A program made the translations under genes and the position numbers. Positions 15,714 through 48,528 of a stretch of DNA of 60,091 nucleotides are shown here, one piece after another (position 1 is the first letter of the stretch; each line of letters starts with the position of its first letter). The notes under the pieces were generated by a model. That model did not search any database. It was not told the origin of the DNA and saw nothing but the letters and a program-made list of their open reading frames with translations. The DNA is from an uncultured Opitutia bacterium (lineage in GTDB: Bacteria > Verrucomicrobiota > Verrucomicrobiia > Opitutales > Opitutaceae), in NCBI GenBank assembly GCA_903896015.1, contig CAITWF010000018.1:1-60091 (forward strand), read 5' to 3'.

Positions 15714-17726
15714 TCAGTTGCCGGTTTTTGCGGGCAGATCGATCATCTGGCTCGGGCCAATTCTTACGCCGGGCTTCAGTACATTCGCTCGAAGGAAGGC
15801 GTCCACGCGCGAGAAAAACGCGATACTCTTTTCCTCCATACGGAAGCCGTGGCCCTCATCCTCCTCGATAATCATTTCGTAGGGTTTGCCGGCTTTTTTC
15901 AGCGCGCGCTCCATGTCGTAGCCATGATCGATGTGCACGCGCGGATCGTTTTTTCCGTAGGCCATGAGCAGCGGGGCGGTGATACGATCGGCGAGATTCA
16001 CCGGCGAGGTGTCGTGCAGCCGCTTGCGATCGGCCGCATCGCCGAGCGAGCCGAGCCGCGTGTTGCGCCAATACATCCGATCGGCGGGCGCGTCCTTCGG
16101 AATGAGCAGCGTGATGTCGGTGACGCCGACGTAATTGATCCCCGCGCAATACAGCTCGGGCGTCAGAGTGAGTCCCGCCATCGTGGCGTAGCCGCCGTAG
16201 CTTGCGCCGCTGATCACCACGCGCGCGGGATCGGCGATGCCTTGGGCGATCGCCCACTTCACGCCGTCGGTAAGATCGTCCTGCATTTCGAGGCCCCACT
16301 TTTTAAAACCGGCGCGCTCGAAATCGAATCCGTAGCCGCCGCTGCCGCGATAGTTGACCTGCAACACCGCAAATCCGCGACTCGCATAAAACTGCACCTC
16401 GTCGTTGTAAGCCCACTCGTCGCGAATGCCGAAGGGTCCGCCGTGCGGGTGGAGAATGAGCGGAAGATTTTTTGCGGGCCGGTTTTTTGGCAGCGTGAGG
16501 TAGCCGTGGATCAGCAGGCCGTCGCGCGCGGCAAACTCGACCGGTTTCAGCGGCGAGAGTTTGTCGGGGTCGATGCCGGGTTTCACGACGGCGAGTTCGC
16601 TCAGTTTCTGGCGGACGCGATCGTAGAGGTAGTAGACGCCTGGGTCGCGATCGCTGGACGAGAAATAAATAATCTTCGAGCCGTCCTCGGCGAACTGGCG
16701 CGGGCGGTGCACGGTGTCGGGCAGCGATTTCTCGACCTTCTGTTGCAGCGCGGCCATCTCCGGATCGATCCAGTGAAAGCGCGTGCGATCCGCGGCGTAG
16801 GCGAGGCCGACGATTTTTTTCTTGGCGGCGTCGTAGATCGTCGAGGGCACCGGGGTGGACGAGGCGACGGCGTTGGCCTCGAGCGCATCGTAAGTATCGT
16901 CGGCAAACACGAGATCGAGCAGGCGGCGCTCGGCGAGATCGTAGCGGTATATCGCTTTGGTTTTGCGGCCGACGTCGGACCATACGAACAGCGTGCGGTT
17001 GTCGCCGTCGAACGCGATCGGTTCCCAGCCGGGTTGATCCATGTGGTGCTCGCCGAGCGTGATCCAGCCCTGCTTCGCGTCGTGATAGAGGACGCGGCGG
17101 ATCTGCTGCTGATCGATCACGGCGAGGCGGACGGTGCCGGTGTGATCGCGGAGGTAGAAGTCAACGTTGCCGGGCGCCTCAATGAGTTTGGTGATGGTGC
17201 CGGTCTTGAGGTTCATCGTAGCGACGTCGGACCAATCGCCGTAGGTGAGATTGGCGAGAACGAGGATGTTTTTCGTGTCGCCTTCGATCGGACCGAGGAC
17301 GCTGCGGAAGCGGACGTTGGCCTCGCCGAGGGTGTCGGCCTTGGAGTAGCCGGAGGCGAGGACGGTGGGGTTGGCACCATCGCGATCGACGGCGTAGAGA
17401 GCGAAGGATTCGCGGCCGGCGTCGTCGACTTGGAAGAGGATGCGATCGTTGCTGGCCCACTGGGGGCGCGTGGCCTGGCGATCCTTGAAATTCGTGAGGA
17501 GGTTTTTCGTGCCCTTCTCGAGATCAATCACGGCGAGGTTCATCCGGTGCTCGTAGGGGATGAGGCAGGCGATGCGTTTGCCGTCGGGCGAAAAGGTGAG
17601 CGAGGCGATCGAGGGGGCGTGAAAGAACGTCGCGACGGGCGGCTCTTTGGGAGTAACCGACTCGGCGGCGGAGAGCGACGCGGCCAGCACGAGCGGGAGC
17701 AGCAGCAGGGGCAGGCGGGAATGCAT
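15714..17726 (-). CDS. Secreted S9 family prolyl oligopeptidase-like peptidase
   Basis: The 670-residue protein has a signal peptide (HSRLPLLLLPLVLAASLSA), a beta-propeller region (residues about 40-390, with TFSPDGKRIA-type blades) and an alpha/beta-hydrolase domain. The catalytic triad is present: Ser in GASYGGY, Asp in YGKNDPRVH, His in DEGHGF. It should cleave peptides outside the cytoplasm, probably as a dipeptidyl or acylaminoacyl peptidase. ATG 17726 begins the signal peptide; an upstream in-frame start overlaps the terminator of the receptor gene. Lying just downstream of two TonB-dependent receptors, it may process peptides taken up by them. Confidence 0.92.
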   Translation of the reverse strand: MHSRLPLLLLPLVLAASLSAAESVTPKEPPVATFFHAPSIASLTFSPDGKRIACLIPYEHRMNLAVIDLEKGTKNLLTNFKDRQATRPQWASNDRILFQVDDAGRESFALYAVDRDGANPTVLASGYSKADTLGEANVRFRSVLGPIEGDTKNILVLANLTYGDWSDVATMNLKTGTITKLIEAPGNVDFYLRDHTGTVRLAVIDQQQIRRVLYHDAKQGWITLGEHHMDQPGWEPIAFDGDNRTLFVWSDVGRKTKAIYRYDLAERRLLDLVFADDTYDALEANAVASSTPVPSTIYDAAKKKIVGLAYAADRTRFHWIDPEMAALQQKVEKSLPDTVHRPRQFAEDGSKIIYFSSSDRDPGVYYLYDRVRQKLSELAVVKPGIDPDKLSPLKPVEFAARDGLLIHGYLTLPKNRPAKNLPLILHPHGGPFGIRDEWAYNDEVQFYASRGFAVLQVNYRGSGGYGFDFERAGFKKWGLEMQDDLTDGVKWAIAQGIADPARVVISGASYGGYATMAGLTLTPELYCAGINYVGVTDITLLIPKDAPADRMYWRNTRLGSLGDAADRKRLHDTSPVNLADRITAPLLMAYGKNDPRVHIDHGYDMERALKKAGKPYEMIIEEDEGHGFRMEEKSIAFFSRVDAFLRANVLKPGVRIGPSQMIDLPAKTGN

Positions 17727-28038: not shown

Positions 28039-28680
28039 ATGCCTTCCACGCAGTTTATCCCCCGCATCGCCGGATTCGTCGCACTTGCGCTGCTCGCTGG
28101 TTGCACTCGCTCGGAAAGCGCCGCCCCCGCCGCGCCCAAGTCACCACCCCTTTTCGCAACGCTCGAAACCGAGAAGGGCAACATCGAGATCGAGTTGCTC
28201 CCGAAGGATGCGCCGAAGACCGTCGAAAATTTCCGACTGCTCGCCGAGCGCGGCTTTTTCAACGGCCTCGTGTTTCACCGCATCGTGAAGGGCTTCATGC
28301 TTCAGACCGGCGATCCGCTCGGCAACGGCAAGGGCGGCGAGAGCGCGTGGGGCAAGCCGTTCGTCGACGAAATCCAAAAAAACTCTCCCCTCTACCAACT
28401 CGGCTCCGGCTACAAGCGCGGCATCGTCGCGATGGCCAACTCCGGGCCCAATACCAACACCAGCCAGTTTTTCATTCTACATCAGGACTACTTGCTGCCG
28501 CCCGCCTACACGATTTTCGGGCGCGTGGTGAAAGGACTCGACGTGGTCGACACCCTCGCCGACACGCCAACGAAGCGCGGCTACGACGGCATGATGAGCC
28601 AGCCCATCACGCCGCCCGTGATCCACAAGGTGACCGTCCACCCGGCCGCACCGGCCGCGGCGTCCACCGCATCAAAGTAG
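28039..28680 (+). CDS. Lipoprotein cyclophilin-type peptidyl-prolyl isomerase
   Basis: The 213-residue protein has a lipoprotein signal (ALALLAGC, Cys at about residue 23) followed by a cyclophilin domain with VFHRIVKGFMLQTGDP and the SQFFI-type active-site segment NTNTSQFFILH. It should catalyse proline isomerisation in the cell envelope, attached to a membrane by lipid. The 3' end overlaps the opposing RDD gene by nine bases. Confidence 0.92.
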   Translation: MPSTQFIPRIAGFVALALLAGCTRSESAAPAAPKSPPLFATLETEKGNIEIELLPKDAPKTVENFRLLAERGFFNGLVFHRIVKGFMLQTGDPLGNGKGGESAWGKPFVDEIQKNSPLYQLGSGYKRGIVAMANSGPNTNTSQFFILHQDYLLPPAYTIFGRVVKGLDVVDTLADTPTKRGYDGMMSQPITPPVIHKVTVHPAAPAAASTASK

Positions 28681-30465
28681 CGACACGCCCTTCGGCACGC
28701 GCACGACCGTCGTGCCGGCGATCTTGTCGTGCCAGGATTGCTTGTCGTCATCGATCGCGACCCAGAGAAACCCGAGGCCGACGACCGCAAGCGAGAGGAA
28801 GCAGCCGAGCGCGCGCACAATCGCCGTCGCCCAGTCGACCTCCCGGCCGTCGAGACGCACGACTTTCAGACCGCACACGATGCCGCCAATCGTCGTGCCC
28901 TTGAGTTTCCACATCACCGCGCCGTAGCCAGCGACGACGATCAGAATAAAGCTGCCGCTGTGGTGGAAAACCGCGGTGAGCATGCCGACGAGGATGAAAT
29001 CCAGCAGCATCGCCGCGAGGCGGATGAGGAAGCCGGCGCGAGGATGCGTGGCCGCCGAAATCACGGGCTGCGCCGGCGGCGCAAATGCGGGCATGACGGG
29101 CGGCACAGGCGGCGGCACCGGAACCGGTGGGGGTGAAATCGATCCGGGCATGGAGGCCGCGGGCTCGCCCGCGACTGCTCCCATCGCGCCAAAACCCGGC
29201 GAACTCATCGGCATCGGCGGCGGGGTGGGCGCGACGGGTGCCACGGGCTGAGTGGGCGGGATCAGCGGATAGGGCAGCCCGGCGCCCGGTGCACCCGCCG
29301 GCGTGGGATTCTCGCGTTTGTTCACAAGAATGAGCGTGAAGATCACGACGCCGAGTCCGAGCACGTCGAAGGATTTTTGCACGAGCATGCCCAAGATCGG
29401 CACGCAATAGATAATTAGCAAAATCGCTCCGCCGATGATCGCGGCGACCGCAGCGTGGTTGAGCGGACCGTCGCCGAAGAATTTCGTGATGCGCCGGCCG
29501 ACCCACACCAGCATCACCGTCTTGCCGACGAGGCCCGCGACGAAGAGGCCCAGCACGAGGAACGGCACCGCCGCGATTCCAACGACCGTGATGCAGAGCA
29601 GCACGATCAGCACGGGCGCGAACAGGATGCTGAGAACGGCCGTGAGAATCGAGGAGCCGGGGCGCGCCTCAAGCGTCGTCACGCACTTGTCCACGCTGCC
29701 GCCGAACACCAGAGCGATGAGGGCGTAGAGCGCGAAGAACGCGATCGCGAAGGCCCACGCAAACCCAAGTCCGCGGGCGAACGCCAGCGGCCGGCCCCAC
29801 ATCGCGCACTCGCGAAACCACGTTTGCAGGCCGGTGAGGTGCGGCATCATGCCACCGCCGATCGCTACATTTTGCACACTGCCATGGACGATCGCCTTAG
29901 GATCGCGCTTCACGGTGCCGCCGACCGAGACAATCTCGCCGCCGACCTCCGCGTCCGGCCCGAGTTCGACATCGCCGAGCACCGCGACGACCTGGCCGCC
30001 GACTTTGCTGTTAACATAGGTGTTGCCGAGGACGGCGACGGCCGAGTCGCCCACCGGGCCCGTGACCCGAGTGTTGCCGAGCACCGAAACGACGGCGTCG
30101 CCGACTTCGCCTTCGCTCGTCGAGGAGCCAAGGATCGAAACGACGGCGTCGGCCTTTTGATCTTTTGCGAGGAAGGAATCATGCGCGATGGAAACGACCG
30201 CGTTGTCGCTGTGAGCCCGACCGCGCGCCGGGCGCGGAGCGCGGGGCGCCGAGGGCGTCGGCTGATCGAGGCGGCGCAGCGGCAGTTCTTCGTTCTTGTC
30301 GGCGGCGGGCGGAGGTTGATCAGCGGTGGCCGCGGCAGGCGGCGGGGAATCGACCACGGGCGGTGTGGAGAGTTTCTTTTCGTCTTGGGCGAGCGCCGCC
30401 AGCGTCAGCGAGAGAAAGCACGCGAGCGCGGCGCCGCAGAAGAAGTGGCGGAGAGAGGTTTTCAT
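28672..30465 (-). CDS. Membrane protein with bactofilin-like repeats and a C-terminal RDD domain
   Basis: The 597-residue protein has a signal peptide (CGAALACFLSLTLAALAQ), a Pro-rich linker, five to six beta-helix-like repeats around residues 85-180 (such as DAVVSVLGNTRVTGPVG), about four membrane segments in residues 200-365, a Pro/Met-rich linker, and a C-terminal RDD domain with three membrane segments (FLIRLAAMLLDFILVGML, then VVRLDGREVDWATA). The combination of extracytoplasmic repeat and RDD is unusual. It is the last gene of a sigma/anti-sigma operon, so it may be the signal-receiving or target protein. Function unknown. Confidence 0.8.
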   Translation of the reverse strand: MKTSLRHFFCGAALACFLSLTLAALAQDEKKLSTPPVVDSPPPAAATADQPPPAADKNEELPLRRLDQPTPSAPRAPRPARGRAHSDNAVVSIAHDSFLAKDQKADAVVSILGSSTSEGEVGDAVVSVLGNTRVTGPVGDSAVAVLGNTYVNSKVGGQVVAVLGDVELGPDAEVGGEIVSVGGTVKRDPKAIVHGSVQNVAIGGGMMPHLTGLQTWFRECAMWGRPLAFARGLGFAWAFAIAFFALYALIALVFGGSVDKCVTTLEARPGSSILTAVLSILFAPVLIVLLCITVVGIAAVPFLVLGLFVAGLVGKTVMLVWVGRRITKFFGDGPLNHAAVAAIIGGAILLIIYCVPILGMLVQKSFDVLGLGVVIFTLILVNKRENPTPAGAPGAGLPYPLIPPTQPVAPVAPTPPPMPMSSPGFGAMGAVAGEPAASMPGSISPPPVPVPPPVPPVMPAFAPPAQPVISAATHPRAGFLIRLAAMLLDFILVGMLTAVFHHSGSFILIVVAGYGAVMWKLKGTTIGGIVCGLKVVRLDGREVDWATAIVRALGCFLSLAVVGLGFLWVAIDDDKQSWHDKIAGTTVVRVPKGVSLL

Positions 30466-30474
30466 TTCGGAAAG

Positions 30475-30933
30475 TCAGCGGTTAACGTAGAGGGTGCGGT
30501 AAGCGGCGGTGCCGAGACCGAAGAGCGTCGCGTAAAGCCCGACGATCGCGGCCGCGCCGCCATAGAGCCAGACGGGCGAGATGCCGCGGATGATGATCGC
30601 GCCGAAGGTGATGGCGCTCGCGGCGACCCCGCGCAGCGCGGAAACCCATGCAAAGTCCGCGGCGACGGAGTTGAGTGCGCGCGTGGTGTCCAAGCCGGCG
30701 AGCGCCCAGACGAACGCCGCCGCCAGCGCAGCGGATGCGACGAGAAACACGCCGCGCACCGCAACCGGCCAGTGCGCGAAATCCTGCCGCCACCACGGTA
30801 GCGCGGCGCGGCGCGAGAGTTCGGCGAGCACGCGCTGCTCCAGCGAGCGCGGCGCGCGGCGCGGCGGCTGATCGCGCAGCGTGCGGGCGATAAACTGTTC
30901 GAGGTTTTTGTCGGACTCGGGGGAAATTTTCAT
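30475..30933 (-). CDS. Putative membrane anti-sigma factor
   Basis: The 152-residue protein has a basic cytoplasmic N-terminal region of about 55 residues (DKNLEQFIARTLRDQPPRRA) and three hydrophobic segments (VFLVASAALAAAFVWALA onward). It overlaps the ECF sigma gene by ATGA and lies nine bases before the RDD gene. Position and a soluble N-terminus on a membrane anchor suggest an anti-sigma factor. No conserved zinc-finger motif is seen, so this rests on context. Confidence 0.6.
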   Translation of the reverse strand: MKISPESDKNLEQFIARTLRDQPPRRAPRSLEQRVLAELSRRAALPWWRQDFAHWPVAVRGVFLVASAALAAAFVWALAGLDTTRALNSVAADFAWVSALRGVAASAITFGAIIIRGISPVWLYGGAAAIVGLYATLFGLGTAAYRTLYVNR

Positions 30934-31532
30934 GGGGTTAAGCCTGTCAGTTTTTCGTGGCTCGCGCCGGAGCGTTGGAGGACTTTGGCGAGCGCGGCGC
31001 GAGCGCGGAGGATGTCGGTCTTCACCTTCGCCAGGGACACGCCGAGTTTCTTGGCGATGTCTTCATAAGGCAGGTCCTCGAAATGATAAAGGACGAGCGG
31101 CACGCGCTGGTGCTCGGGAAGATCGTCGAGCGCACGTTCGACCCAGGCACGTCGCTCGGAGGCGTCGACCCCCGCAAAGAAATCGTCGCCCGCGGCGAAC
31201 TCGATCTCCGGCTCATCCTCCACCGCCCCGTCGCGCTTGAACTCGGAGAAAAATTTCCAGCGGTTACGGTAGCGCGAGAGGTGGTTGAGCGAGAGGTTGG
31301 TCGCGACGGTCTTGAGCCAGCCACCCGCCGTCGGGCTGGTGCGCAACTGGTCGAAGTGTTGGTGCGCCTTCAGGAAGGTTTCCTGCGCGATATCCTCGGC
31401 CTGCGCGTCGTTGCCGGTGAGGCGGGCGGCGGTCGAGAAAACCATGTCTTGGTAGGCGCGCATGAAGGTCGTGAAGTCGGCCGGGGGGATCAGCCCCGAG
31501 GGTGGTGTTTGCACTGGAAGTTCATCGTTCAT
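30930..31532 (-). CDS. ECF (RpoE-type) RNA polymerase sigma factor
   Basis: The 200-residue sigma-70 factor has region 2 (YQDMVFSTAARLTGNDAQAE, ETFLKAHQHF and WLKTVATNLSLNHLSR) and region 4 (LPEHQRVPLVLYHFEDLPYE and ASLAKVKTDILRARAAL-type recognition helix). It directs transcription of its own target set in response to an envelope signal. Its stop overlaps the start of the putative anti-sigma gene, and the 4-base overlap implies coupled translation. A GTAACTTT motif upstream could be an autoregulated -35 element. Confidence 0.93.
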   Translation of the reverse strand: MNDELPVQTPPSGLIPPADFTTFMRAYQDMVFSTAARLTGNDAQAEDIAQETFLKAHQHFDQLRTSPTAGGWLKTVATNLSLNHLSRYRNRWKFFSEFKRDGAVEDEPEIEFAAGDDFFAGVDASERRAWVERALDDLPEHQRVPLVLYHFEDLPYEDIAKKLGVSLAKVKTDILRARAALAKVLQRSGASHEKLTGLTP

Positions 31533-42760: not shown

Positions 42761-42911
42761 AGGGCGATTTTACCGCAAATCACGATCTCGGCGCGCGCGG
42801 CGCAAGGTCCGGCGTGCGGCCCGCCATCCGGGCGGGCAGTCGCAGCCGAAATCCGCCGGCCGCAAAGTTGTTGTCCGGTTTTCAATCCCGTGACGTTTAT
42901 CGGCAAACGGC

Positions 42912-44453
42912 ATGATCGACGACGCCACCCTGCTCCATCGCTATGCGGCACATCGCTCCGAGGGCGCGTTCGCCGAGCTCGTTAGGCGTCACTTGCCGTT
43001 GGTCTATTCGGCGGCGATCCGCCGGCTCGAGGGCGACGCTCACCGGGCGGCCGATGTGGCCCAATCGGTTTTTGCCAAACTGGCGCGCGACGCAGACCGA
43101 CTTTCCCGGCACACCGCTCTCACGGGCTGGCTTTACACCGCAACGCGCAACGCCGCGATCGACGTCGTGCGCTCAGAGCAGCGCCGGCGCATCCGCGAAC
43201 AGGAGGCCCACACCATGCAGGAAATTTCCGCCCCGCCCGAAACCCCGATCGATTGGGCAAAACTCCAGCCCGTGCTCGACGGCGTGATGGACGAGCTCGA
43301 GGACGACGATCGCGAGGCGGTCCTGCTGCGCTATTTTCAAAACCGCCCCTTCGCCGAAATCGCCTGCGCGATCGGCTTGAGCGAGGATGCGGCACGCAAA
43401 CGTGTGGAGCGCGCCGTCGAGAAACTCCGCAGCCCGCTCCGCCAGCACGGCATCACCTCCACGTCTGCCGCGCTGGCCACCGTGCTAGCAAGCGAGACGG
43501 CCCTCGCCGCACCCGCCACACTCGCAAGCAGCATCGTGGGAGCCGCGGTCGCGAACGGCAGCGTCACCGCGGGAACCGCCGTCTTGACCAGCACCGCCAA
43601 GCTTTGGATCGGCATCGCGGCCGCCGCGGCGATCGGCGGCGCGGTTGGAGTAGTGTCCCAGCGCGGAACGATCGCCGAGCTGCGTGACGCACAGGCGAAA
43701 ACCCGACAGGAGCTGGCCAAACTTCCGGAAACGAACGCCGCCAGTCTGAATGCGCGCGTCGCGGCCGAGCAGGAATTGGCGCCACTCCGTGCGTCATCGC
43801 GCGCCCGCGACGCCGCAGCGCCAGCGTCGAATCAGACAGTCACGCCACGCCCCACCGATGCCGCTCCCCGCTCCGCCACACCGCTTCCGATCGCGCAGAC
43901 ACCCAAGACGCGCCAGCAGCGCTCGGATCTTCATCAGCGTTACGATCCCTTTCTGCTAAAATACGGACTCACGCCCGCCCAAGCCGATCGCTTCGTCGAC
44001 CTGAAGATTGCGATCTACGAAGCGCAGGATGATCTGCAGGCGGCGGTGCGCACCGCTGGCGCCCAAGGCGACAGCACAGCCGTCGAAGCCATGCGCTCAA
44101 AACTCGTGAAGCCCATGTGGGACGAGATTCGCCAACTCCTCGGCCCCGAGGGCTACCGGGCCTACGGGAGTTTCGAGACCGCCTCGGCCTACCGCCCCGC
44201 TTACATCGATCCGATGCTGCCCGAATTCTACTCCGCGAACGTCCCGCTGTCCGCCCAGCAAGTCGATCAACTGCTTCAACTCGTCACCGCCCACCACCGC
44301 TCCGTGCGCGTCAATCCCACCGACATCAGCACCCAAGGAATCGTGGACTGGGACGGCGTCGTGGCGCAGGCCGGTGAGGTTCTCACGCCCGCGCAGCTCG
44401 TCGTACTGCAACGCTACACCACCAGCAGAAAATCCGAACAGGCGTCGCACTGA
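42912..44453 (+). CDS. ECF sigma factor fused to a membrane anchor and outer C-terminal domain
   Basis: The 513-residue protein begins as a normal ECF sigma factor: region 2 at residues 10-90 (FAELVRRHLPLVYSAAIRRL, LTGWLYTATRNAAID) and region 4 at 120-175 (YFQNRPFAEIACAIGLSEDA). An Ala-rich linker (180-228) follows, then a membrane helix at about 231-250 (LWIGIAAAAAIGGAVGVV), a coiled-coil-like stretch (255-300), a Pro/Ala-rich linker, and a helical domain from about 340 with LTPAQADRFVDLKI and LTPAQLVVLQRYTT, reminiscent of LTxxQ/CpxP-type periplasmic sensors. The sigma part is thus held at the membrane with a sensor outside. It heads a four-gene run of exported proteins. Confidence 0.88.
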   Translation: MIDDATLLHRYAAHRSEGAFAELVRRHLPLVYSAAIRRLEGDAHRAADVAQSVFAKLARDADRLSRHTALTGWLYTATRNAAIDVVRSEQRRRIREQEAHTMQEISAPPETPIDWAKLQPVLDGVMDELEDDDREAVLLRYFQNRPFAEIACAIGLSEDAARKRVERAVEKLRSPLRQHGITSTSAALATVLASETALAAPATLASSIVGAAVANGSVTAGTAVLTSTAKLWIGIAAAAAIGGAVGVVSQRGTIAELRDAQAKTRQELAKLPETNAASLNARVAAEQELAPLRASSRARDAAAPASNQTVTPRPTDAAPRSATPLPIAQTPKTRQQRSDLHQRYDPFLLKYGLTPAQADRFVDLKIAIYEAQDDLQAAVRTAGAQGDSTAVEAMRSKLVKPMWDEIRQLLGPEGYRAYGSFETASAYRPAYIDPMLPEFYSANVPLSAQQVDQLLQLVTAHHRSVRVNPTDISTQGIVDWDGVVAQAGEVLTPAQLVVLQRYTTSRKSEQASH

Positions 44454-44479
44454 GCCCGTCAAACACTTCAATCCCCACC

Positions 44480-44983
44480 ATGAAACTCCCCCATAAAAAC
44501 CTCCGCCGCGCCCTCCTTGTAGCGGCGCTTCCCCTGCTCGCGTTCAATTTTTCCCAAGCCCAAACCTCCGGCAACACACTGCCGCCTGCTCCGCCGCCAA
44601 TTTCCGAGGCGGATTTTCCCTACACCATCAAGGTCAAGACCTGGCCGGCAGAGGAAGGCTTTCGCCGCGGCGATCGACTCCAGATCGAATCGGTGAAGGG
44701 CGATCGGCCGACGATCGAGCCGGGCGGCTCCTATCTCGTGCAGGGCACCTACACGCTCGGCTCCGCGCCAAGCGCGAGGCTGATGCTCTCCCTCACCTCT
44801 AAGGGCGGTCGCAGCCTCACTTCGGCAACTCAGCGCATGAATATCGATCAGGGCACCGGCGCCTTCACTCTCGCGACGACCGTGCGGGATTCGGGTCAAC
44901 TCCATGTCTCGTTCTACTTCCCCGATCCGAACGAACCGCGACGCAGCTCCTCTGGAGGAGGAATCTATTTCGACAACCGCTGA
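44480..44983 (+). CDS. Secreted protein of unknown function in the membrane-sigma operon
   Basis: The 167-residue protein has a signal peptide (LLVAALPLLAFNFSQAQ), a Pro-rich segment and a beta-rich domain (SYLVQGTYTLGSAPSARLML, then GQLHVSFYFPDP). It resembles an immunoglobulin-like or carbohydrate-binding-like domain in its strand pattern but no family was recognised. It starts 26 bases after the sigma factor gene and is likely on the same transcript. Confidence 0.7.
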   Translation: MKLPHKNLRRALLVAALPLLAFNFSQAQTSGNTLPPAPPPISEADFPYTIKVKTWPAEEGFRRGDRLQIESVKGDRPTIEPGGSYLVQGTYTLGSAPSARLMLSLTSKGGRSLTSATQRMNIDQGTGAFTLATTVRDSGQLHVSFYFPDPNEPRRSSSGGGIYFDNR

Positions 44984-45061
44984 GGCCAAAACCATCGGCG
45001 CACCCCGGCCACCCACGATTTCCCTCTGGCCGACCGCTGCCAGCGCCGATTCAACCGTAAG

Positions 45062-46777
45062 GTGATCCGGCCCGGTCTTTTACTCGCGTGCAGTCTTGCC
45101 TCGGCTGCGCGGCTGCTCGGGCAGACGGACCCGTTTGAAACCCGCGTCGAGTTGTTGTTCCGGCCGCTGCTCGCGGAGCAGATGGCGCTCTCGCCCGATG
45201 GTCGGCGCGTCGCCTACACGAGGCAGGCGGGCAACGATCTGCAGGTAATCATCCTCGATGTTGAAAATCCACTGGCAAAGGTCAGGCTCAACGTCGACGA
45301 GGCGCGCACCGTTCTCTTCGCGAAAGAAAAACAGCACGCGCAACTCCGCTTCCTGCGATGGGCCACCGCCGATCGGCTCGTGATGGCGCCGACGGTGGTG
45401 CGCATCATGGTGCCCACAATGCCGCCGCCGTCCTCGCTTGACGCCGAACGCTTGCTGACCGAAGGACCGCCGCCCAAGCTGCCCGATACGCCAAAGATCA
45501 CCGCACCGATCATGGCGGTGGATGCCACCGGACTCAACCCGACGGAGCTCGCGGACGCATCGCCAGAAGCGACAATCGCGCCGCCGATTAATGGCTTCCT
45601 AACGAACAATCGCGAGAGGCTGGTGGTCTTGTTTCCGCCGGACGAAGGCGGTCGCGTCACGATCGATGTTCGCACCGGCAAAAAAACAGAACTCGATGAC
45701 GAACGCCCGCTCACCACCGCCGCCGACGGCCGGTTCCCGTTTCCGGGCGAGGCGCGCATCAGAGCGATGGAGGATTTGGCCCGCAAATTTCCTCATCGCA
45801 CCGCTGAGCTGCTGGACTGGACGGAAGACCTTCAATATCTCCTCGTCCACATCACCGGCGGCGGCGATCCCGGGCGCGTGTTTGTGTATCAGCGGCCGCT
45901 CAACCTCATGCTGGAAGTTTTTCGCAATGCCCCATGGTTGAATAGCAGCGAGCTCAACGAGACTCGCGCCTTCGAGGTCGCCGGACCGGACGGAACGCGT
46001 CTCAGCGGCTGCGTCACCTGGCCGCGCGCCCCACGGCTGAAGCCGCCGCCATTGCTCGTGTGCTTTCCGACGAAGATTCCCGGCAGCGCGCAACCCGACT
46101 TCGATCCGGAGTCGCAGCTGCTCGCCGACCTCGGCTTCGTCGTGCTGCGACCGAATCATCGCTTTGCGAAAAACTTTTCAGCTCAGGATCGCGCGGCCCT
46201 GCGGACGGGCCTCGATCGCATCTCGGTCGACGATGCGGCGGCGATGGTGGGAAAACTGGCCGAGTTATTTCCGAACCGGCCGTTCGACGCGAAGCACATC
46301 GCGACGCTGGGCCGTGGTTTTGGCGGCTACGTCGCCGTGCGTGCGCTCCAACTCCGCCCTGATGTGTTTCACGCCGGCATCGCGATCGACGCGCCGATGG
46401 ATCTTCGCCGGTGGCTCTACCCCGCGGTCTTCTTCCTCGACGCTCCGCACCCGACAGATCTTCCGTCAGGTATTTTCACTTCCGACTCCGAGGAACTGGA
46501 AAGAATTTCCGTCGCCAACCACGCCGCGTCGTTGACGCGCCCGGTGATGTTCATCGTCGAGCCCAGCCGCAACGCCACGGTCGAAATGGGCGTGAGTGCG
46601 GTCCGCGCAGAGTTGAAAAAGGCCGGACACGCCGCGGACTACCTCGAGGCGGAGCCCGGTTTCGCGCTCGGCTTGCCAAAGGCGCGCGCGGCCGTTTATC
46701 GAAAAATTGAGGAATTCATCAACCTGCGGCTCTACGATTATCGCGTGAAGATCGGGCCGTCCACCGAGGTCAAATGA
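45062..46777 (+). CDS. Prolyl-oligopeptidase-like protein lacking its catalytic triad
   Basis: The 571-residue secreted protein (GTG 45062, signal peptide to about residue 20) has S9-like propeller sequence (QMALSPDGRRVAYTRQAG) and an alpha/beta-hydrolase C-terminus. Aligned by eye to the intact S9 peptidase at 15714-17726, the nucleophile motif GASYGG is GRGFGG with Gly419 in place of Ser. The Asp site (YGKNDPRV) is VEPSRNAT, with Arg in place of Asp. The His site (DEGHGF) is EPGFAL. All three residues are missing, so a binding or scaffold role is more likely than proteolysis. It overlaps the next gene by ATGA. Confidence 0.82.
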   Translation: MIRPGLLLACSLASAARLLGQTDPFETRVELLFRPLLAEQMALSPDGRRVAYTRQAGNDLQVIILDVENPLAKVRLNVDEARTVLFAKEKQHAQLRFLRWATADRLVMAPTVVRIMVPTMPPPSSLDAERLLTEGPPPKLPDTPKITAPIMAVDATGLNPTELADASPEATIAPPINGFLTNNRERLVVLFPPDEGGRVTIDVRTGKKTELDDERPLTTAADGRFPFPGEARIRAMEDLARKFPHRTAELLDWTEDLQYLLVHITGGGDPGRVFVYQRPLNLMLEVFRNAPWLNSSELNETRAFEVAGPDGTRLSGCVTWPRAPRLKPPPLLVCFPTKIPGSAQPDFDPESQLLADLGFVVLRPNHRFAKNFSAQDRAALRTGLDRISVDDAAAMVGKLAELFPNRPFDAKHIATLGRGFGGYVAVRALQLRPDVFHAGIAIDAPMDLRRWLYPAVFFLDAPHPTDLPSGIFTSDSEELERISVANHAASLTRPVMFIVEPSRNATVEMGVSAVRAELKKAGHAADYLEAEPGFALGLPKARAAVYRKIEEFINLRLYDYRVKIGPSTEVK

Positions 46778-48528
46778 ACGCGTCGTGCTCAAGCCTTTTC
46801 AGCCTCGCGGCGCTCGCTCTCGCGGGCACTGCGGCGCTCGCACGCGGCCAATCGCCCAATCCACTCGCGGCGGCGGCCGATGCGCCCGCCGTGGAGTTGC
46901 CGCCGATGGTCGTCGCCGAGTCGGCTGCCGCGCCGCCGTGGCTTTACGTCAAGGTGGGCAACATGGAATACCTGTCGCGGTGCTCGGCGGCGACGACCCG
47001 CAGTTACGCCGAGGAGTGGGAGCGCGCGCTCCAGATCATGGGAGCGTTCGTGCCCGATTCGCTGCTGCCGCGGAATGAAATCCCCGCGCTCACGATTCTC
47101 GTCAGCCAAAGTTTCGGCCAGTCGACGAGCCCCGAGTTGTTGAGGGAACTGAAGCAGCAGGCGGCGCTGCACGACCGCGCCCGCTTTGGGCAGGAGCCCC
47201 GCGCGATTTCCTACCGCTTTGCGCCCAACATGCGCCTCGAAGATCGCGACACGTATGCGACCTTCGCGTATGTCGACGAGTCGAGGTTCGACGCGTCGCG
47301 GCTCACCGCCACCCCCGCCTACCTGCGGTTCCTGCTGGAGCGGCGTGTGCCGGCGCTCCCCGCGTGGTTCATCGAAGGCATCGACCAAGCCTATCGCAAC
47401 GCCACCCTGTCGCTCGACGAGATCACGCTCCCGGATTTTTCCTGGGTCGACGACGCTCAGACACGCTGGCTCGCCCGCTCCCCCGACGCGCCGCGGGCGC
47501 TGCTGCCGGCGAGCGAACTCTTCGCGCCCGACGCCCTGCGCGGTCCCATCAACGGAAATCCGCAGCGCGTCGAAACGATGAAGGCGCAAGTCGCCCTCTT
47601 CGTGCGCTGGGCCTTGGAAGGCGGCGTGTCGACCCGGGATGCACTCTGGCAGTTCGCCGCCCGCGCCGCCGAACAGCCGGTGACCGAGCTGATGTTCGAG
47701 TCGTGTTTTGGCTTCGACTTCGCGGAACTGCGCGATCGGTTGAGCGACTATCTGCCGGGCACGTTGCAAAAGTTCCCCCGCCTCGATCCGGGAAAACTTC
47801 CGCGCGTGCCGCGCGCCGCCGTGCGCCCAGCCACGGTCAGCGAGATCGCGCGCCTTCGCGGCGAATGGGAACGGCTGGCGATCGGTTTTGTGAAGAACGG
47901 CCAGCCGGAAGTGCAGGAGCACTACGTAGCGCAGGCGCGGCGCACGCTCCACCGCGCCTACGACACCGGCGACCGCGATCCGCGGCTGCTGGCAAGGCTG
48001 GGGCTCTGCGAACTCACGGCGGGCGATGCGGCGGCCGCGCGAAGCTTTCTGGAGTCGGCGACAGCGGCGCGCGTCGGCCGAGCGCGCGCTTACTACGAAC
48101 TCGCGCGCCTGCACCTCGCGGACCTGCGGCGCGACCAGCCGGCCACGAAACTTTTTTCCCCCGCCGAACTCAGCCCGTCACTCGATCTTCTGCGCGTGGG
48201 CGCGCGTCAGAAACCACTCCTGCCGGAGATGTTTCTTCTCCTCGGCGACGCGCTCGTGCGCAGCAGCGTCGCGCCCACCGCCGAAGACTTCGTCTTGCTC
48301 GACGTCGGCGCGGCGGCGTTCGCACGGCGACCGGATGTCAGCTTTCAACTCGCGCTCGCGTTGGCGCGCCACGGGAAGCGAGACAGCGCGGCCGCGCTTC
48401 TGGCCGCGAGCAGCGACTACGTGAACGACGACAATCTACGTGCGCGTTTCGCCCAGCTACGACAAACGCTTGCTTCCTCTGAACCTCACGACAGCGGCGC
48501 GAGCGTCTCCGCGACCGGCGTGCGGTAG
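46774..48528 (+). CDS. Secreted helical-repeat protein of unknown function
   Basis: The 584-residue protein has a signal peptide (SLFSLAALALAGTAALARG), an N-terminal domain with LPAWFIEGIDQAYRNA (a peptidase-MA-like position, but no HExxH was seen), and a C-terminal half rich in Ala/Leu helices (RLGLCELTAGDAAAARSFLE, ALALARHGKRDSAAALL) that look like TPRs at about residues 390-560. Its first four bases overlap the pseudo-peptidase gene, so both proteins are made together and may form a complex. Its last 43 bases overlap the opposing permease gene. Confidence 0.7.
   Translation: MNASCSSLFSLAALALAGTAALARGQSPNPLAAAADAPAVELPPMVVAESAAAPPWLYVKVGNMEYLSRCSAATTRSYAEEWERALQIMGAFVPDSLLPRNEIPALTILVSQSFGQSTSPELLRELKQQAALHDRARFGQEPRAISYRFAPNMRLEDRDTYATFAYVDESRFDASRLTATPAYLRFLLERRVPALPAWFIEGIDQAYRNATLSLDEITLPDFSWVDDAQTRWLARSPDAPRALLPASELFAPDALRGPINGNPQRVETMKAQVALFVRWALEGGVSTRDALWQFAARAAEQPVTELMFESCFGFDFAELRDRLSDYLPGTLQKFPRLDPGKLPRVPRAAVRPATVSEIARLRGEWERLAIGFVKNGQPEVQEHYVAQARRTLHRAYDTGDRDPRLLARLGLCELTAGDAAAARSFLESATAARVGRARAYYELARLHLADLRRDQPATKLFSPAELSPSLDLLRVGARQKPLLPEMFLLLGDALVRSSVAPTAEDFVLLDVGAAAFARRPDVSFQLALALARHGKRDSAAALLAASSDYVNDDNLRARFAQLRQTLASSEPHDSGASVSATGVR

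Follow-up and report, generated by a model that had tools for sequence, protein, structure and literature searches.

The 60,091-nucleotide contig CAITWF010000018.1 of an uncultured Opitutia bacterium (assembly GCA_903896015.1), which we call the window, carries four open reading frames (ORFs) on the forward strand between 42912 and 48528, the first three spaced 26 and 78 bases apart and the last two overlapping by 4 bases (Table 1). This layout agrees exactly with the four-gene order given in a preliminary description of the locus. The first ORF encodes a putative membrane-tethered sigma factor of the extracytoplasmic function (ECF) type, and this protein, its relatives and the promoter in front of them are the subject of the present analysis.

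The N-terminal part of the 513-residue protein matches the Pfam families Sigma70_r2 (E-value 8e-14) and Sigma70_r4_2 (3e-11), both above the cut-off, as well as TIGR02937 (7e-27), and no sigma region-3 match is listed by Pfam. ECF sigma factors consist of the regions sigma2 and sigma4 only and have no sigma3. By hydropathy, a membrane-type segment is located at residues 231-249 (1.97), and a weaker segment, not mentioned in the preliminary description, at residues 196-214 (1.57). In the predicted model the membrane segments are followed by long helices and then by a C-terminal domain of ~180 residues; in an AlphaFold2 prediction, residues 322-513 are mainly helical with a mean predicted local distance difference test score (pLDDT) of 90.3. 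The view of this protein as a sigma factor with a membrane helix and an outer domain is thus upheld by the sigma regions, the segment 231-249 and the confident helical C-terminus, with homology and domain content arguing for the outer side. The full-length model (predicted template modelling score, pTM, of 0.38; pLDDT below 50 for residues 215-250) left the linker undefined and contained no confident structural contact. A proposed resemblance of the C-terminal helices to LTxxQ/CpxP sensors holds at the motif level only: the Pfam family LTXXQ (PF07813) scored 10.6 bits (E-value 0.98) against a cut-off of 24.3, and it is absent among the 25 of 50 families listed for 19 aligned members of the sigma family. 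Neither FecR nor STN was matched by Pfam at E-values up to 1, nor was a zinc-finger or WD40 match obtained, and Cys152 is the sole cysteine of the protein.

Relatives of the window sigma factor were sought in a neighbourhood set of 57 genomes, consisting of the source genome plus one from its genus, 35 from its family and 20 from its order. They are found at E-values of 1e-30 or below in 22 of these genomes, often as tandem arrays, with 25 copies in G024 alone (26 candidates were scored per genome). In a sample of the whole class, 51/236 genomes contain a family sigma gene at 1e-40. In a wide search, each of 84,980 bacterial and archaeal species was represented by one genome; the best 80 matches correspond to 78 loci, with titles that name Verrucomicrobiota except for one that says just 'bacterium'. 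The gene caller found 106 family sigma genes in 77 of these 78 named loci, 94 of them untruncated and at least 260 residues long. Apart from this named set we used a first set of 34 sigma genes, six of which are common to both. A hydrophobic segment in the linker is present in 93 of the 94 full-length relatives and two such segments in 84, and across the family the last linker helix is preceded by a motif with the majority sequence MSTTK. In most members a methionine immediately precedes the membrane helix, which suggested that a free anchored sensor might be made from the same gene. This idea was dropped, with Shine-Dalgarno-like sites in 3/32 cases compared with 21% of random in-frame positions and 6/34 called sigma starts.

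The helical outer domain of the window protein, here designated class 1, occurs in 51 sigma genes across the two sets (shared genes counted twice). For 62 scanned sigma factors other than these, Pfam matches at E-values up to 0.01 include TonB_C in 12, CarboxypepD_reg in 2, Big_1 in 2, and SLBB/Poly_export and SecDF_P1_head in 1 each, among the 25 of 40 families listed. TonB_C, CarboxypepD_reg, Big_1, SLBB and SecDF_P1_head are extracytoplasmic domain types, and their presence at the C-terminus of relatives is the main argument for a C-terminus outside the inner membrane. Judged by its sequences, this is a large modular family, in which the sigma part and linker are constant and the outer domains are exchanged freely. 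Members with a TonB_C outer domain, such as that of L148 (10303-11742; 8.5e-17), might touch a TonB-dependent receptor directly.

The conserved neighbour of the family sigma genes is an anchored twin of the outer domain, often encoded directly downstream. Of the 25 downstream neighbours in the first set (that of the window excluded), 19 cluster by similarity with the C-terminus of the preceding sigma factor. In the named set without the shared genes, the downstream neighbour matches its own sigma factor in 16/40 cases (E-value below 1e-3), compared with a mean of 4.9 and a maximum of 10 for shuffled pairings, and the controls gave 0/27 for opposite-strand and 1/31 for upstream neighbours. When the shared genes are left in, the own matches amount to 19/46 (shuffled mean 6.1, maximum 12); after removal of ~80 residues of coil they amount to 12/46 (shuffled mean 3.4, maximum 7). 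Resemblance to some sigma C-terminus was found for 45 of 471 non-family genes, and 37 of these lie directly downstream of a family sigma gene, two being sigma remnants. For the 65 distinct pairs of the joined set, a class-1 sigma factor is followed by a class-1 neighbour in 20/28 cases and any other sigma factor in 0/37 (Fisher p 1e-10), while the sigma factors outside class 1 have an own match in 19/37. The 46 anchored downstream proteins have just one segment, located at the N-terminus, whose N-side tail is positive (+69/-2). In the 733-residue sigma factor of genome G005 (L141, 5465-7666, minus strand), a single membrane anchor is followed by two tandem class-1 domains (residues 340-514 and 536-708), as if sigma factor and twin were fused, and the gene after it is on the other strand. 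This arrangement, found once in the two sets, is as expected if the outer domain of the sigma factor and the twin act as a pair. The window sigma gene has no twin gene behind it.

The 120 bases upstream of 134 distinct sigma genes share an element, TTTTGT[TG]CGGTTTT, which is followed after ~6 bases by a CGGCG-like stretch and a -10-like element. The first part is matched at 11 or more of 14 positions in 87/134 cases versus 3/134 after shuffling, and in 76 of the 87 it starts 40-48 bases before the start codon. The window promoter scores 25.3 with the position weight matrix (PWM), the next best site of the window 11.8; the values are 25.6 and 12.0 when the shared genes are taken out of the training. 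Given the distance from the promoter to the start codon at 42912, the transcript would be nearly leaderless. With the matrix trained on the named set minus the shared genes and a threshold score of 22, a held-out scan of 656 kb on both strands recovered 21 of 29 sigma genes that the training had not included and 4 sites elsewhere (an earlier scan with the six shared genes gave 27/35 and 3 sites). The pattern TTGTBCGGTTTY occurs 8 times in the source genome, 3 times at its three family sigma genes, and its reversed form once. A stricter pattern gave 31 matches in the 57 genomes, 20 at about 40-50 bases and one at 97 bases before a family sigma gene; the remaining 10 are at chance level, since the reversed control gives 20. 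Hence, the motif is almost confined to sigma genes in the scanned sequence, and the output of these sigma factors seems to be mainly their own transcript. A strong family promoter (28.6) at position 9568 of L148 precedes a small exported protein, TonB_C-like by eye, and may mark a target gene. A weaker promoter-like site (21.8; L114, 8293, corresponding to G000:C96:28296) lies beside a second copy of the dead-S9/TPR gene pair described below, pointing away from it. As a promoter for this paralogous pair it was rejected, as it was not found in the same-genus relative and has no clear gene behind it.

In the 87 sigma/promoter pairs, promoter bases covary with residues of the sigma factor encoded behind them. 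The strongest links are between residue 84 and promoter position 25 (mutual information, MI, of 1.06; D-C 31, K/R-G 27) and between residue 159 and position 6 (MI 0.93; N-G 42, D-T 31, D-C 6, N-T 2), followed by those of residues 56, 83, 60 and 86 with positions 26-28. In 20 shuffles, the maximum MI over all pairs ranged from 0.50 to 0.67. We interpret positions 25-28 as the -10 element and position 6 as the -35 element. The stretch with residues 83-86 presumably corresponds to region 2.4. Recognition of the own upstream promoter is common but not universal among ECF sigma factors. The counterpart of residue 159 in SigW is G167, where the DNA-recognition helix starts, and in the SigW structure the adjacent T168 and K170 contact the -35 element (PMC6713349). 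All three family sigma factors of the source genome obey the pairing of residue 159 with position 6 (D-C, N-G and D-T). On this sequence evidence, each family sigma factor is taken to read its own promoter, and the covariation of promoter bases with DNA-reading residues makes self-activating receptors likely. The suggestion of a self-contained signal system is borne out to this extent: the window sigma gene has its own promoter, which its product apparently reads.

Proteins 2-4, encoded behind the window sigma factor, form a separate question. Protein 3 matches Peptidase_S9 (1.7e-11) and was rightly described as catalytically dead: GRGFGG stands in place of the S9 catalytic motif GxSxGG, and the serine is also missing in 15/15 aligned relatives. 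An ordinary S9 gene at 15714-17726 of the window keeps its nucleophile serine. Protein 4, previously called an exported helical-repeat protein, has a signal-like N-terminus, and its best TPR match (0.0018) is weak and below the curated cut-off; near-full-length homologues back this ORF, and an ORF picked by the gene caller on the opposite strand was discarded as spurious. The dead-S9 and TPR genes are adjacent at 11 other places in the 57 genomes (G031, G024, G001, G018, G028, G008 and G021 one each, G007 three, contig C96 of the source genome one), with no family sigma gene in the fetched flanks of any of them. No relative of protein 2, the S9 protein or the TPR protein was seen in the sigma-centred loci L131-L150, and in the 78 named loci the sole match was a weak one to the TPR protein (E-value 6e-4), within a fragment of 83 codons at the edge of a locus. 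The N-terminus of protein 2 is signal-like, and Pfam gives no match for this protein. Its relatives number 2 in the 57 genomes; they occur in 6/236 genomes of the class and, by profile search, in 10/387 of the phylum, the latter two counts including the source genome. In genome G216 its domain is encoded by the third gene of an operon that begins with a separate sigma gene and an anti-sigma-like gene, and in G170 (L237, 4431-4808 and 4833-6968) a similar domain lies within a BlaR1-type M56 receptor adjoining a BlaI-like repressor gene. In the remaining neighbourhoods, rough gene calls, which were poor for some (one stretch gave none), placed neither a sigma nor a receptor gene next to it. A role of protein 2 as a general signalling partner was tentatively set aside, with two homologues located with signalling genes. 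It was likewise dismissed as a divergent twin of the sigma outer domain, to which it shows no similarity. The four-gene order is not conserved in the relatives examined, an outcome that the preliminary description itself had named as refuting its reading; a conserved sigma-S9-TPR operon was also discarded, and the three genes appear to be an unusual local addition.

Table 1. Coordinates of genes and predicted features at the sigma factor locus of the window.
Feature	Position	Strand	Evidence
Putative membrane-tethered ECF sigma factor, 513 aa	42912-44453	+	ORF, Pfam, TIGR02937, hydropathy
Protein 2, 167 aa, signal-like N-terminus and rare domain	44480-44983	+	profile search, neighbourhoods
Protein 3, S9-peptidase-like without nucleophile serine, 571 aa, GTG start	45062-46777	+	Pfam, alignment
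Protein 4, exported, weak TPR match, 584 aa; conserved partner of the dead S9 gene	46774-48528	+	homologues
Sigma regions 2 and 4, residues 19-176; putative promoter-reading residues I83, D84, V86, D159	42966-43439	+	TIGR02937 7e-27; covariation
Weaker hydrophobic linker segment, residues 196-214, present in most of the sigma family; topology uncertain	43497-43553	+	hydropathy
Predicted membrane helix, residues 231-249	43602-43658	+	hydropathy
Predicted outer helical domain, class 1, about residues 332-512	43905-44447	+	AlphaFold2, family alignments
Family promoter: TTGTCCGGTTTT at 42871-42882, GACGTTTA at 42892-42899	42867-42902	+	PWM, covariation

Taken together, the window gene probably encodes a one-piece transmembrane sigma receptor with a self-activating promoter, released by proteolysis. 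The tether, the self-reading promoter and the domain modularity are deduced from sequences, and sensing and release are proposed by analogy with IutY (see below). In this mechanism, a cytoplasmic ECF sigma part would be followed by a hydrophobic linker, the end of which forms one membrane helix, and then by a helical domain outside the inner membrane, and the tethered sigma factor would be restrained. A change in the envelope would be sensed by the outer domain, often with the anchored twin of the same domain, and would trigger two-step proteolysis, with a site-1 cut followed by an M50 site-2 protease. The freed sigma factor would fire its own promoter in a positive loop, which would be reset by fresh receptor. 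At the window, protein 2 and the dead-S9/TPR pair may share the sigma transcript, either as its output or in the role of a replacement partner. For the family as a whole, we tentatively consider it quite possible that this is a distinct signalling mode: one-component receptors with a sigma factor as output, with swappable outer domains (TonB C-terminal domains among them) and many with twins, insulated as self-activating circuits by a private promoter code that a few residues determine. The twin might then be a decoy or co-receptor that, by pairing with the outer domain, holds or releases the sigma factor.

Several observations weigh against this interpretation. Regarding the twins, among the 19 own matches of sigma factors other than class 1, 8 are confined to the coiled coil, and the twin is missing at the window and in 7 further class-1 cases of the 28. 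The class-1 domain also occurs away from sigma genes: a search of 18 chosen genomes found it at 94 places, 25 fused to a sigma factor, 18 within 3.5 kb downstream of one, 15 at an aldolase locus and 36 elsewhere, which disposed of the idea, derived from the earlier, sigma-centred loci, that it is exclusive to sigma genes. Regarding the promoter, 8 of the 29 held-out sigma genes have no strong match. For the rule of residue 159, the residue and its base each change 15 times on the best tree, with just 3 independent pairs on well-supported branches (all agree, p 0.25), and the rule of residue 84 is tested by just 1 independent change on supported branches. The presence of two hydrophobic segments in most members makes a hairpin with a cytoplasmic last domain possible, and the flank charges over 84 proteins are mixed (+83/-8 in the loop between the segments, +163/-151 after the second segment). 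M50 proteases are present in the source genome and also in all 14 control genomes, and intramembrane cleavage leaves no visible sign in the sequence.

A hairpin, in which both segments cross the membrane and the C-terminal domain senses an internal signal in the cytoplasm, would agree with the second segment and with the absolute number of K/R residues, which is higher after that segment than in the loop. The extracytoplasmic domain types found at the same place in relatives argue against it, as do the anchored downstream proteins with their single N-terminal segment and positive N side, and we consider this topology very unlikely. A rather doubtful alternative is that the sigma factor stays tethered and works at the membrane, with the outer domain altering its conformation or dimer state and no cleavage taking place. 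Other ECF factors with C-terminal extensions work via conformational change or partner binding (PMC8999054), and packing of the conserved linker against the sigma part is conceivable. In the same source, as excerpted, the only extension-bearing ECF factor with experimentally characterized proteolytic release is IutY, which is membrane-bound like the window sigma factor, and the full-length model offers no confident structural contact for such packing.

The preliminary description had assigned the downstream genes a role as well. It saw proteins 2-4 as exported subunits of a sensor complex with the sigma factor, so that the operon would be one functional unit. Their common direction, the short gaps and the one strong family promoter at the head fit this idea; terminator-like sites are no commoner in the region than in shuffles (7 found versus a mean of 6.7), and the protein-2 domain recurs with signalling genes in the sigma/anti-sigma-like operon and in the BlaR1-type receptor. 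Such a complex is nevertheless unlikely, as the S9/TPR pair recurs without a sigma factor, protein 2 is rare and, by rough gene calls, mostly found without an adjacent sigma or receptor gene, and the gene order is not repeated in any relative examined. It is possible, and in our view a reasonable if unproven option, that these genes are cargo instead, an S9/TPR module and protein 2 that landed behind the sigma gene and now belong to its regulon without being sensors. The occurrence of the pair in other contexts speaks for this, as does the near-restriction of the promoter motif to sigma genes, with an output that seems to be mainly the own transcript of the sigma factor. The cargo explanation assumes a putative co-transcription and is compatible with a one-piece sigma receptor rather than opposed to it.

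The search of the 18 chosen genomes also revealed, in 13 of them, a conserved anchored class-1 copy beside a class II aldolase-like gene; in 11 of these 13 a topA-like gene flanks it on the opposite side (L291, 5824-6951, and most of L292-L309). Both gene names are presumptive, being judged from the protein starts. In the source genome, the sole class-1 match besides the window sigma factor is such a protein, anchored and encoded between topA-like and aldolase-like genes (G000:C69). It could be the partner of the window sigma factor in trans.

Tethered ECF factors are already known, among them IutY and the groups ECF48, ECF52 and ECF53; none of the titles or abstract openings listed by the literature searches deals with the modular family, the twin rule or the promoter type described here, and some members may be numbered in the 2021 ECF classification. 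The outer part of IutY is a FecR-like anti-sigma domain. According to the excerpts of the publications on which this comparison draws, IutY of Pseudomonas putida (ECF243) combines a sigma domain, a membrane segment and a periplasmic regulatory domain in one polypeptide and is freed by Prc and RseP (PMC5411451, PMC8999054). The window protein likewise unites a sigma factor, a membrane segment and a predicted outer domain in one chain. It differs in that the anti-sigma domain of IutY is served by an outer-membrane receptor, whereas the window protein has the helical class-1 domain in place of a FecR match and belongs to a family with twins and its own promoter type. The actinobacterial groups ECF48, ECF52 (SCO4117) and ECF53 have C-terminal membrane extensions of up to 400 residues, for which proteolytic release has been proposed (PMC8999054); they belong to another phylum and are described there with a zinc-finger anti-sigma domain, for which the window protein has no match and only one cysteine. 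In the related phylum Planctomycetes, the ECF family is likewise expanded and bears C-terminal extensions; compared by description, ECF57 has WD40 repeats and is reported with two linking cysteines (PMC8999054), in contrast to the window protein with no WD40 match and one cysteine, and in Tuwongella immobilis the Triton X-100 or SDS fractions yielded some of the ECF factors (PMC8567305). In fold searches with the outer domain, structures of CnrX, whose fold is a hooked helical hairpin, recurred among the weak matches (Foldseek E-values of 1.3-6; VIA-align Z of about 5 over ~85 residues), none of them significant. In the CnrX/CnrY/CnrH system of Cupriavidus metallidurans a periplasmic sensor controls an ECF sigma factor (PMC4598750), and as described there CnrX is a separate protein that acts via CnrY, unlike the fused outer domain of the window protein.

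What is known of tethered sigma factors comes from individual cases such as IutY. With its naturally swapped domains, matching partners and legible promoter code, the family described here could reveal directly how a signal from outside is passed to a sigma factor when no separate anti-sigma factor is involved, and what keeps many parallel sigma circuits of one genome insulated from each other. The residue-base pairs are open to direct reporter testing.

Two further observations concern neighbouring genes. The conserved S9/TPR pair of the window and the 11 other places (45062-48528 in the window) apparently consists of two dead enzymes: the TPR-like protein contains no HExxH in the aligned region, and its LPxWFxxG stretch is presumably reminiscent of a zinc peptidase. 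The window also contains an ordinary sigma operon on the minus strand (28672-31532), in which a conventional ECF sigma factor of 200 residues is followed, with a 4-base overlap, by a membrane protein with two segments and then by an RDD-domain protein.

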